Of a DNA stretch of 64,000 nucleotides, positions 15,101 to 64,000 are shown in pieces (the stretch's first letter is position 1; each line of letters begins with the position of its first letter). The notes below the pieces were generated by a model. The model was given only the letters and a program-made list of their open reading frames with translations. It ran no database searches and was not told the origin of the DNA. A program made the translations under genes and the position numbers. The DNA comes from Pseudoduganella sp. (GTDB taxonomy: Bacteria > Pseudomonadota > Gammaproteobacteria > Burkholderiales > Burkholderiaceae_D), in NCBI GenBank assembly GCA_021323265.1, contig JAJTCO010000027.1, positions 1 to 64,000 on the forward strand, read 5' to 3'.

Positions 15101-16151
15101 CCGGCACGGTCAGCGAGGTCTCGGCCACGTTGGTGGCGAGCACGATACGGCGCGCGTTGGTGGTGCGGAACACGCGGTCCTGCTCTTCGACCGAGAGGCG
15201 GGCGAACAGCGGCAGGATCTCCACGTGCGGCGGATGGTGCTTGCGCAGCGCTTCGGCGGCGTCGCGGATTTCGCGCTCGCCCGGCAGGAACACCAGCACG
15301 TCGCCGCTGCCGATGCGGCACACCTCGTCGACGCCGTCGACGATGGCTTCCATCAGGTCGCGCTTCTCGCGTGCGGCGGCGGTGCGGGCGCCCTTGGCGT
15401 CCGCGCCTTGCTGCGCGCCGGGCAGCGCGACCTGTTCGCGCTCCACCGGCCGGTAGCGCACTTCGACCGCGTACAGGCGGCCGGACACTTCGATCACCGG
15501 TACCGGCGGCTTGCCTTCCTGCGTGAAGTGGCGGGCGAAGCGCTCGGCGTCGATGGTGGCCGAGGTGATGATCACCTTCAGGTCGGGGCGGCGCGGCAGG
15601 ATCTGCTTCAGGTAGCCAAGCAGGAAGTCGATGTTCAGGCTGCGTTCGTGGGCTTCGTCGATGATGATCGTGTCATACGCCTTGAGCAGCGGGTCGGTCT
15701 GGGTTTCCGCCAGCAAGATGCCGTCGGTCATGAGCTTGACCGAGGCGCCCTTGCTCAGGGTATCGTTGAAGCGGACCTTGTAGCCGACATGCTCGCCCAG
15801 CGGCGAACCCAGTTCGACGGCGATGCGCTTGGCGGTGGACGAGGCGGCAATGCGGCGCGGCTGCGTGTGGCCGATCAGGCCTTTCTGCCCGCGTCCCAGC
15901 TCCAGGCAGATCTTGGGTAGCTGGGTGGTCTTGCCGGAGCCGGTCTCGCCGGAGACGATCAATACCTGGTGCCTGGCCAGCGCTTCGGCGATTTCGCGGC
16001 GCCGGCCCGATACCGGCAGGTCTTCCGGGAAGGTGATCGGCGGCAGCGGGTTGCGCAGCGGCGGCGCGCTCGCGGCGGGCGCGGGTTTGCCGCCTTGCGG
16101 GCGCTGGGCACCGGGTTGCCGGGGTAGATTCTTCTTGCTTGCTTCAGACAT
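12126..16151 (-). CDS. hrpA: ATP-dependent RNA helicase HrpA
   Basis: DEAH-box RNA helicase of 1341 residues. Walker A GETGSGKTT, DEAH in IIDEAHERSLN, NQRAGRCGR (motif VI) and the long C-terminal domain (DUF3418-type) are all present. In other bacteria HrpA acts on mRNA processing and stalled ribosomes. The track ORF starts at 16226, which would begin inside argA; ATG 16151 (MSEASKKNLPRQPG) leaves a normal promoter gap. Residues about 995-1065 are a low-complexity Ala/Gly/Pro stretch interrupting the C-terminal domain. It is divergent from argA, and its end overlaps the GlxA gene by 41 bases. Confidence 0.93.
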   Translation of the reverse strand: MSEASKKNLPRQPGAQRPQGGKPAPAASAPPLRNPLPPITFPEDLPVSGRRREIAEALARHQVLIVSGETGSGKTTQLPKICLELGRGQKGLIGHTQPRRIAASSTAKRIAVELGSPLGEHVGYKVRFNDTLSKGASVKLMTDGILLAETQTDPLLKAYDTIIIDEAHERSLNIDFLLGYLKQILPRRPDLKVIITSATIDAERFARHFTQEGKPPVPVIEVSGRLYAVEVRYRPVEREQVALPGAQQGADAKGARTAAAREKRDLMEAIVDGVDEVCRIGSGDVLVFLPGEREIRDAAEALRKHHPPHVEILPLFARLSVEEQDRVFRTTNARRIVLATNVAETSLTVPGIRYVVDAGLARVKRYSYRNKVEQLQIEPVAQSAANQRAGRCGRVADGVCIRLYDEQDFLQRPKFTDPEILRSSLASVILRMKSLHLADVESFPFIEPPLGRAIADGYQLLQELGAVDDDNALTPLGRKLAKLPLDPRVGRMILAAQEYACLTEVLIVASALSVQDPRDRPVEHQQAADEAHKKFADERSEFLSYLKIWKWFENAIEHKKSNRQLMDTCRATFLNQLRLREWRDVHSQLLTIVKEQGWRTNELPATYDQLHMALLTGLLGNIGFKGEDEPGGAYLGARGIKFHIWPGSHLSKKPGKWIVAAELVETTRLYARCVARIEPEWLEKIGGHLLKKSWGEPRWEKRPSQVTASERATLYGIVVYSQRRINYGAKNPAEAREIFIRDALVGGDYDTRAPFFAHNHKLVREIENLEHKSRRQDVLVDEQLIEAFYDGQIPADVVNGAGFEKWYKDASHDNPKLLFLNRDDLMRHEAAGITTDLFPKKMMAAGIEMQLSYHFEPGTPRDGVTLTVPLYALNQLSRERCEWLVPGMLKEKVHLLLKTLPQKQRRHMVPLPDYAAKFCERTQFGRGDLIDAIIADIRKQITISVLTSDFKPEQLPAHHFMNFKVVDEHGRQLDMGRNLATLQAEYGLQARQSFQRMAEGGNAPASAAQLAQLAGNAAGAAKPKHGGIAADAARRAPAGKAPAAPAAAAGASAGTAASQHSNITTWSFGELPELLEITQGKLSLIGFPALVDKGTHCDLEVFDDPNVAARTHRIGMRRLFMLQMRDQIKFVEKSIPNLQQMGMQFMAMGTQEELRDQIIAKAIDIACLQDPLPTDEASFNKRKDEGKSRIVLLVNEIARLVSQVLTEYHGLPKRLQGINQQVAQDMQQQLQGLVHKRFLIENEFSQLSHFPRYLKAMNVRLEKLRADPARDAKSMAEWNQAAAPYQRLMRDKSAGKNTDPKLVEYRWMLEELRVSLFAQELRTPMPVSVKRLTKVWESMQR

Positions 16152-40915: not shown

Positions 40916-43900
40916 ATGGCAAAATTCTTTATCGACCGCCCCGTCTTCGCGTGGGTGATCGCCCTCTTCATCCTGCTGGGTGGAGCGTTGGCCATCACCG
41001 TGCTGCCGGTGGCCCAGTACCCGACCATCGCTCCGCCATCCATCGTCATCAGCGCCGCCTATCCGGGCGCTTCGGCCCAGGTGCTGGACGATGCCGTCAC
41101 CTCGGTGATCGAGCAGGAGATGAACGGCGCCGACGGCCTGCAATACGTGGAGTCGCAAAGCGACTCCAACGGCTCGGTCAGCATCACCGTCACCTTCCAG
41201 CCCGGCACCAATCCCGACCTGGCGGCGGTGGACGTGCAGAACCGCATCAAGCGCGTCGAGTCGCGCCTGCCGCAAGCGGTGATCCAGCAGGGCGTGCAGG
41301 TCAACAAGGCGCGCTCGAACATCCTGATGTTTGTCGGCGCCGCCTCGACCGACGGCAGCATGGACACCACGGCCATCGGCGACTACCTGGCGCGCAACGT
41401 GGTCAACGAGATCAAGCGCCTGCCAGGCGTCGGCCAGGCCGAACTGTTCGGCACCGAGCGTTCCATGCGCGTCTGGGTCGATCCGGACAAGCTGACCGGC
41501 TACAAGCTCAATATGAGCGAGGTCACCGCCGCCATCCGCCAGCAGAACGCCCAGGTGGCGGCCGGCACGGTGGGCGACCTGCCCAACCAGCGCTCGCAGA
41601 CCTGGTTCGCGCCGGTGGTGGTGACGGGCCAGCTGAGCTCCGTCGAGGAATTCGGCAAGATCGTGCTGCGCGCCAACCGCGACGGCTCGCTGGTGCGCCT
41701 GCGCGACGTGGCGCGCCTGGAACTGGGCGGCGCCAGCTACCGCGTCAGCGCGCGCCTGAACGGCGAGCCGTTCGTGGCCATCGCCGTGCAGCAGTCGCTG
41801 ACCGGCAATGCGCTGGCCACGGCCAACCTGGTGCGCGAGAAGATGGACGAGCTGCAAAAGTACTTCCCGCCCGGCCTGAAATACACCGTGCCCTACGATA
41901 CGTCCCTGTTCGTGAAGATCTCCATCGAGGAAGTGGTCAAGACCCTGCTCGAAGCGGTGGCGCTGGTGTTCCTGGTGATGTATGTCTTCCTGCAGAACAT
42001 CCGCTACACCCTGATCCCCACCATCGTGGTGCCGATCGCGCTGATGGGGACCTTCGCGGCGATGCAGATGTTCGGTTTCTCGATCAACGTGCTGACCATG
42101 TTCGGCATGGTGCTGGCCATCGGCATCCTGGTCGACGACGCCATCGTGGTGGTGGAAAACGTCGAGCGCATCATGAGCGAGGAAGGCCTGCCGTGTTCAT
42201 CCCGATGGCCTTCTTCGGCGGCGCCGTAGGCGCCATCTACCGCCAGTTCTCGCTGGCGATGGTGTCGGCCATGGTGTTCTCGGCATTGATGGCGCTCTCG
42301 CTCACGCCGGCGCTGTGCGCCACCATGCTAAAGCCGGTGCAGGCCGGCCACCACCATGCCAAGAGCGGCCTGTTCGGCTGGTTCAACCGCGGTTTCGCCG
42401 CCACCGCCACCCACTACCAGGGCTGGGTGGCCAGGATGCTGACGCGCACCGGGCGCTTCATGCTGATCTTCGCGGCCCTGCTGGGCATCGTGGCCTGGCT
42501 CTACGTGCGCCTGCCCTCCTCCTTCCTGCCCAACGAAGACCAGGGCTACATCATCGCCAACGTGCAGCTGCCGCCCGGCGCGGCGCGTGGCCGCACCGAG
42601 GCTGTGCTGGCCGAGGTGGACAAGTACTTCCGCAGCCAGCCCGGCGTGGCGCGCACCATCGCGGTCGCCGGCTTCAGCTTCTCCGGCAGCGGCCAGAACG
42701 CCGGCCTGGTGTTCGTGCCGTTGAAGGACTGGAAGGAGCGCGGCCCGGACCAGTCGGCCGACGCCATCGCCGGCCGTTCCTTCGGCGGCCTGGCGCACAT
42801 CCAGGATGCGCAGATCTTCGCCCTCAGCCCGCCGCCGATCCGCGAACTGGGCAACGCCACCGGCATCACGGCGCGCCTGCAGGACCGGGGCGGCCTGGGC
42901 CACGAGGCACTGCTGGCGGCGCGCAACCAGCTGCTGGAGATGGCGGGCAAGAGCAAGGTGCTGGTGGGCATGCGGCCGGAAGGCCTGGAGGACGCGCCGC
43001 AGATGCAGGTCGACGTCGACCGCGAGAAGGCCAATGCGCTGGGCGTGGCGTTCTCCGATGTCGCCGCCACGCTCGGCACGTCGCTCGGTTCGTCCTACGT
43101 GAACGACTTTGCCAACAGCGGCCGTCAGCAGCGCGTGATCGTGCAGGCGGACCAGGCACGCCGCATGCAGCCGGACGACATCCTGCGCCTGCAGGTGCGC
43201 AGCAACAGCGGGACCATGGTGCCGTTCGCCTCCTTCGCCACCACGCGCTGGGTGACGGGCCCGATCCAGCTGGTGCGCTACAACGGCTATCCGGCCTACC
43301 GCCTGAGCGCCAACGCGGCGCCGGGCTACTCGACCGGCGAGGCGATGAACGAGCTGACCCGCCTGGCCGAGCAGCTGCCGCCCGGCTTTGGCATCGAGTG
43401 GACCGGCCAGTCGGCCGAGGAGCGCTTGTCCGGGGCGCAGGCGCCGATGCTGTTTGCGCTCTCGCTGCTGGCGGCCTTCCTGGTGCTGGCGGCGCTGTAC
43501 GAGTCGGAAACGATTCCGGTGGCGGTCCTGCTGGTGGTCCCCCTGGGCGTGCTGGGCGCGCTGCTGGGCGCCCACCTGCGCGACCTGCCCAACGACGTGT
43601 ACTTCAAGGTGGGCCTGATCGCGATCATCGGCCTCTCCGCCAAGAACGCCATCCTGATCATCGAGTTCGCCAAGGACCTGCAGGCGCAGGGCAAAGGACT
43701 GATCGAAGCCACGCTGGAAGCGGTGCACCTGCGCTTCCGCCCGATCATCATGACTTCGCTCGCCTTCATCCTGGGCGTGCTGCCGCTGGTGGTCGCCTCG
43801 GGCGCGGGCTCTGCCTCGCAGCGCGCCATCGGCACCGGCGTGATGGGCGGCATGATCACCGCCACCGTGCTGGCCGTATTCCTGGTGCCGGTGTTCTTCG

Positions 43901-50184: not shown

Positions 50185-50193
50185 GGCGCTATT

Positions 50194-61443: not shown

Positions 61444-62109
61444 ATGAGCCAACATTTTTCCGGCAGCCTGTTCATGGTTGCTGCACCATCGGGTGCCGGT
61501 AAATCGACGCTGGTCAATGCCCTGCTGGCGCAGGAACCAGCCATCAAACTGTCCATCTCGACCACCACGCGCGCACCGCGCCCGGGCGAGCAGCACGGCC
61601 GCGAGTACTTCTTCACCACGGCCGAAGACTTCCTGCAGCGCGCCGAACAGGGTGAGTTCCTGGAATGGGCCGAAGTGCACGGCAATTACTACGGCACCTC
61701 GCGCATCTTCGTGGAAGAACAGATGAAGGCCGGCACCGACATCCTGCTGGAGATCGACTGGCAGGGCGCGCGCCAGGTCAAGAAGCAATTCCCGCAGGCG
61801 GCCGGCATCTTCATCCTGCCGCCGTCGATCGCGGCGCTGGAAGAGCGCCTGCACAAGCGCGGCCAGGATGAACCGCACGTGATCACGCGCCGCCTGCTGG
61901 CGGCGGGCGGCGAAATCGCCCACGCGCCGGAGTTCGAGTATGTTATTATCAACGAAGAGTTCCCGGTCGCCTTGTCGGAGCTGAGCGCGATCGTCCGATC
62001 GGCCCGTTGCCGGTTCGCGCAACAAGCCTCCACGCCGACCACGCAGAATAATCACCGCATCTATCCAGGAGTTGTAGCATGGCCCGTATTACTATTGAAG
62101 ATTGCCTGA
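61444..62109 (+). CDS. gmk: Guanylate kinase
   Basis: Converts GMP and ATP to GDP and ADP. Walker A GAGKST ([17 protein letters not shown]), the GMP-binding [11 protein letters not shown] and REYFF motifs, and [10 protein letters not shown] are visible. ATG 61444 ([10 protein letters not shown]) preferred over track start 61396. The open frame is 221 codons, but the last about 25 residues (from QQASTPTT) do not resemble the family and overlap rpoZ by 31 bases. A one-base shift at about 62028 gives LHADHAE and a stop at 62051, leaving a proper gap with an AGGAG site before rpoZ. The body of the gene is certain; the C-terminus is not. Confidence 0.9.
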
Positions 62110-62282
62110 AGAACATTCCCAACCGCTTCCAGCTGACCCTGGCAGCGACCTACCGCGCACGCCAGCTGCTGCAGGGCCACACCCCGAAGGTGGAAGCCAA
62201 GGACAAGCCAACCGTGGTGGCGCTGCGCGAAATCGCCGCCGGCAAAGTCGGCCTGGAAATGCTGAAAAAGGTCCCTATGTAA
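62079..62282 (+). CDS. rpoZ: RNA polymerase omega subunit
   Basis: 67 residues: [30 protein letters not shown], the standard omega start. It stabilises beta-prime folding and binds ppGpp site 1 with it. AGGAG 8 bases upstream. Short but full length for betaproteobacteria. Located between gmk and spoT, the conserved order. Confidence 0.97.
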
Positions 62283-62306: not shown

Positions 62307-64000
62307 ATGAGCCTGACTTCCGCCGATCCTCACATCAGCGAACAGCCCGCACGGCGGGCACGGCGCCCGGCTAAGCAACAGCCGGGCGTTGACGTTTCTG
62401 CAGCAGCGATTTCCACTTCGCCGCTGGCGGCGCCGACCGTCACCACCGGCGTTGCCACCATCACGCACCTCACCGAAAAACTGGCCGAGTACATGAACGA
62501 GGCCGACCTGAAGAAGGTCAAGGAAGCCTATCGCTTCTCGGACGAGATGCACCTGGGCCAGGTGCGCAAGTCGGGCGAGCCGTACATCTCGCACCCGATC
62601 GCGGTGGCCGAGATTTGCGCCGAGTGGAAGCTTGACGCGCAAGCGATCATGGCCGCCCTGCTGCATGACGTGATGGAAGACCAGGACGTCAAGAAGGAGG
62701 AGCTGATCGAGCGCTTCGGCGCGCCGGTCGCGCACCTGGTCGACGGCCTGTCCAAGCTGGAAAAGATCGAGTTCCAGAGCCAGATCGAAGCGCAGGCGGA
62801 GAACTTCCGCAAGATGCTGCTGGCCATGCGCACCGCCTTGGCCTGAACAATATCTACCGCGAGCTGCAGGACCTGTCCTTCTCCCACCTGTATCCGGTGC
62901 GCTACCACGTGCTGTCCAAGGCCGTGAAGGCGGCGCGCGGCAACCGGCGCGAGGTGGTGACCAAGATCCTCGATGCGGTCAACCATACGCTGAGCGCGGC
63001 CGGCATCCAGGCCGAAGTCTACGGCCGCGAGAAGACGCTGTACGGCATCTACAAGAAGATGCGCGCCAAGCACCTGTCGTTCTCGCAGGTGCTCGACGTG
63101 TATGGCTTCCGCGTGGTGGTCGACAGTTTCCCCAACTGCTATGTCGCGCTGGGCACCCTGCACTCGCTGTACAAGCCGATGCCCGGCAAGTTCAAGGATT
63201 ACATCGCGATCCGCAAGCTGAACGGCTACCAGTCGCTGCACACCACGCTGATCGGCCCTTACGGCACGCCGGTGGAATTCCAGATCCGCACGCAGGAAAT
63301 GCACCGCACGGCCGAATCGGGCGTGGCGGCGCACTGGCTGTACAAGAACGGCGAAGCGAACATGTCGGACATGCAGCAGCGCACCCACGCCTGGCTGCAG
63401 TCGCTGCTCGACATCCAGCAGCAGACCGGCGACTCGGCCGAATTCCTGGAACACGTGAAGGTCGACCTGTTCCCCGATTCGGTCTACGTCTTCACGCCCA
63501 AGTCCAAGATCATCGCCCTGCCGCGCGGCGCCACGCCGATCGACTTCGCCTACGCCATCCACACCGGCATCGGCGACCATACGGTCTCGGTCAACATCAA
63601 CGGCGACGCGGCCCAGCTGCGCACTGAACTGCGCAACGGCGACATCGTGGAAATCGTCACCGACCCGAACTCGCGCCCGAACCCGACCTGGCTGTCCTTC
63701 GTGCGCACCGGCAAGGCCCGCTCGGCGATCCGCCACCACCTGCGCACCATCAACCTGCCCGAGTCGATCCGCCTTGGGCAGCAGCTGCTGGCGCAGGCGC
63801 TGAAGGCCATCAACGTGCAGCCCGAGCTGCCGGCGCCGATCATGGAGCGCTTGCTCAATGAATCGTCCGCCAAGTCGGAAGAGGAACTGTATGCCGACAT
63901 CGGCATCGGCAAGCGCATGGCGGCGCTGGTGGCGCGCCACATCTTCGGCCTGCTGGGCGGCGAATCGGCCAGCGCGCCGGTCGAGCACACCAGCCCGAAA
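62307..64000 (+). pseudogene. spoT: spoT, bifunctional (p)ppGpp synthetase/hydrolase, interrupted by an out-of-frame deletion; continues past window
   Basis: Starts at ATG 62307. The first frame carries an HD hydrolase start (SHPIAVAEICAEWKLDAQAI, HDVMED at 120-125) through FRKMLLAM (codon 174) and then ends at 62846. The text resumes at 62828 one frame over as AHRLGLNNIYRELQDLSF and runs open to the window end, with the synthetase core (KMRAKHLSFSQVLDVYGFRVVV) and TGS domain (DSVYVFTPKSKIIALPRGATPIDFAYAIHT). About 43 codons are missing, including the LADRLHNMRT stretch with a metal-binding Asp. The shift is 3k+1 bases, so no complete SpoT could be made from this sequence. Confidence 0.9.

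Follow-up and report, generated by a model that had tools for sequence, protein, structure and literature searches.

The break in spoT at the end of the window (the whole 64,000-nucleotide stretch analysed, with which contig C94 of a Pseudoduganella draft assembly begins) is best explained as an assembly artefact and not as a real mutation, and we give this reading a probability of about 0.93. We prefer it because bases are missing at the break and from the rest of the assembly, because other genes, some of them essential, show the same defect, and because ordinary pseudogene lesions are absent. The flanks of short gaps (about 30-160 bases) would have been joined directly, without Ns, in a fragmented draft, and a gap lying inside a gene would then appear as a false out-of-frame deletion. 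Such joins probably arose where gaps were handled during assembly or scaffolding, a step that we infer. Most likely, the living bacterium, like its relatives, has RelA together with a bifunctional SpoT that is intact. The draft consists of 149 contigs (4.68 Mb, 83.3% complete) and, judging by its assembly statistics, is probably a metagenome-assembled genome (MAG); no Ns were found in the 675 kb of it that was read.

Two reading frames and a missing segment in spoT

The spoT gene lies in the conserved order gmk-rpoZ-spoT, and its coding sequence is divided between two frames that meet at 62828 (Table 1) instead of running in the single continuous frame of a SpoT gene. The first frame reads to FRKMLLAM and continues as MRTALA to a stop at 62846, and the second picks up at AHRLGLNN. 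The domain content follows the same division. The Pfam profile HD_4 (PF13328) could be aligned only over positions 1-111 of 156, before the break, so that the hydrolase domain is incomplete as written, which we attribute to assembly, and the RelA_SpoT synthetase domain (PF04607) was detected above its cut-off at C94:63023-63355 with 135.5 bits. Compared with the known SpoT, a bifunctional (p)ppGpp synthetase/hydrolase of the long RSH type (PMC3153485), the gene is alike in its flanks and its gene order, but the draft copy lacks 43 HD-domain residues and a continuous frame.

Table 1. Positions of the gene parts and junctions within the window.
Feature	Position	Strand	Description
acrB-type RND pump gene junction	42190..42191	+	76 bases gone, out of frame
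gmk junction	62028..62029	+	34 bases gone near the 3' end, out of frame: QQA/ARNAKLMSELGI/HADHAE
rpoZ	62079..62282	+	67-aa open frame; name from sequence and gene order
spoT 5' part	62307..62846	+	179-aa open frame; N-terminal portion of the HD hydrolase domain; last few residues out of frame
spoT junction	62828..62829	+	130 bases gone, kept by all relatives examined
spoT 3' part	62825..64000	+	other frame; synthetase and downstream domains; extends past the window to C94:64456

The nearest genome compared was that of Pseudoduganella guangdongensis DS3, with about 92% identity in the spoT DNA 3' of the break. In the BLAST alignment with DS3, the match ends and restarts at 62828, where 130 reference bases are absent and one base is shared. 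The loss amounts to 3k+1 bases and therefore shifts the frame, and the missing part includes LADRLHNM. A match in two pieces with about 130 bases missing was also obtained with 23 other genomes of the genus (24 including DS3). In addition, the segment carrying LADRLHNM is uninterrupted in all 80 named spoT loci; 71 of these were recognized by an automatic pattern and have exactly 43 residues there, and the other nine were read from their translations. The preliminary description had proposed a 3k+1 loss of about 130 bases that removes LADRLHNMRT from the hydrolase, and both points are borne out, the size being exact by the DS3 alignment and the 80 named loci. The two flanks are 95-96% identical to SpoT of P. 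guangdongensis. When the missing pieces of spoT and pheS (see below) were searched for elsewhere in the assembly, only short matches expected by chance and no strong match were found, and relocation of the spoT segment to another place in the assembly was rejected.

Clean losses in other genes of the draft

About 352 kb of the draft was aligned with one close reference, P. guangdongensis DS3, and sharp jumps in the alignment were checked against the reference reading frames. Five clean losses of 34-163 bases were found, spoT included, with microhomology of zero to about one base, and three of the five are on one contig (acrB, gmk and spoT on C94). In gmk, the frame runs on into the start of rpoZ after the 34-base loss, and the tail of the gene is intact in all 28 relatives read. 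In pheS (C7:4112), the loss of 110-112 bases takes away the start codon together with about 22 residues, and the lost stretch is matched throughout by 24 other genomes of the genus. The fifth loss lies between folD and an ATPase gene (C44:19040), where the absence of 163 bases removes the ATPase start. PheS and Gmk are essential enzymes. The losses in their genes therefore cannot be true, and the breaks share a technical cause. It had been suspected earlier that the spoT and acrB breaks arose in a common way; this holds, with the cause being technical, since the same clean losses are present in gmk and pheS.

The junctions have the form that would be expected of gaps joined without Ns. First, the losses are clean, with zero or one shared base and without flanking repeats. 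The longest direct repeat in the breakpoint regions is 4-7 bases at spoT, acrB, pheS and the ATPase gene, and the value of 19 obtained for gmk is not meaningful because its two breakpoint regions overlap. Recombination between direct repeats was thus rejected, as no repeat at the breakpoints is long enough. Second, the same defect affects unrelated genes, essential ones among them, and is absent from the isolate genome.

Two further jumps in the alignment were rejected as joins. At 16055 (net 151 bases), the alignment of the encoded protein is full length and stays in one frame, which indicates natural variation. The jump at 50185 (about 2 kb) is spanned by no reference open reading frame and another relative is also without the approximately 2 kb, which indicates natural gene content. 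In rne (RNase E; C42, about 450-474), the draft is 93 bases shorter than P. guangdongensis in frame; this may be natural variation or another join, and it was left out of the join count. By eye, CATG or CATGG stands directly to the left of the joins at 62828, C44:19040 and C7:4112, probably by chance given the few cases.

RelA and the alternative explanations

A real deletion could have destroyed the SpoT hydrolase, with survival through a weakened RelA or another hydrolase. In E. coli, spoT knockout is lethal when RelA is active (PMC3153485), and spoT-null clones can be recovered with suppressor mutations in relA, some of which are not inactivating (PMC4154780); such clones provide a precedent for survival. 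The search for relA in the rest of the genome, suggested earlier, located it on contig C15, intact, as one frame of 749 aa. RelA aligns end to end with those of 13 relatives and departs from positions otherwise invariant among them only at D554E and A746T. These substitutions could be taken in favour of a real deletion, but both lie outside the synthetase core, which is unchanged, and a damaged RelA was therefore rejected. No clear relA suppressor was seen, although, on sequence alone, a point change of this kind may be present. A search with the HD_4 and RelA_SpoT profiles turned up no RSH protein other than RelA and SpoT in the assembly, which is 83% complete, and a compensating hydrolase was rejected, as no further HD_4 protein was detected there. 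As written, then, the cell would be without a ppGpp hydrolase but with an intact RelA, and with RelA intact a real loss of spoT is expected to be lethal. The physiological conflict anticipated in the preliminary description is thus upheld. A real deletion also leaves unexplained why acrB, gmk, pheS and the ATPase gene have breaks of the same kind. With RelA intact, no other hydrolase found and equal losses in the essential gmk and pheS, a real spoT mutation is unsupported and we consider it highly improbable. Even more doubtful is a natural Pseudoduganella-like bacterium that has no ppGpp hydrolase, keeps RelA and tolerates this through changes that we do not see.

Alternatively, the consensus might have taken up a chimeric molecule or a real deletion that only a fraction of the population carries. 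The clean junction and the near full identity of both flanks with the relative are consistent with this, but the event would have had to happen separately at each of several loci, essential genes among them, and the breakpoint regions of spoT, acrB, pheS and the ATPase gene share direct repeats of at most 7 bases. We regard this explanation as very unlikely, on a par with a real deletion.

The last alternative concerns the genome as a whole. In a gene-damage survey with a codon-model pass, 236 reference genes whose homologue in the draft is at least 80% identical were inspected, and two of them (acrB and spoT) are split mid-gene. No single-base frameshift was detected among the 236 genes. Six were flagged for stops, all near predicted frame ends, where the prediction of starts and ends is uncertain, and no convincing internal stop was found in the set. 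In the reverse comparison of the isolate with the draft, no mid-gene break of the same kind turned up in the isolate genome. Of the three splits reported there, one belongs to the draft itself (the gmk break), and the other two resemble start predictions set too far upstream or overlapping frames. Decay of the whole genome, with spoT as one of many real pseudogenes, might be suggested by the several broken genes and by an assembly of 4.68 Mb against 5.1-7.6 Mb in the same-genus relatives listed, but it is scarcely credible, because the single-base frameshifts and nonsense codons expected of it are not convincingly present in the 236 genes, pheS and gmk are essential, and the small size is largely due to the assembly being only 83% complete.

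Consequences for reading this draft

Damage of this general kind has precedents. In MAGs, gaps and local assembly errors are a known problem (PMC7111523), and the draft is alike in that they lead to incomplete or incorrect protein-coding genes; it differs in that its gaps would carry no Ns and mimic real deletions. Low-coverage assembly is also reported to yield spurious pseudogenes (PMC11017572), where likewise intact genes look broken for technical reasons, but the lesions in our draft are losses of 34-163 bases and not internal stops or small indels.

Five joins in about 352 kb aligned correspond to about one per 70 kb, which by extrapolation suggests about 65 in the whole draft, and, as they carry no Ns, only comparison with relatives exposes them. 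The spoT break is very probably an ordinary assembly artefact and not a real feature of this bacterium, and pseudogenes called in this draft should not be taken as biology.
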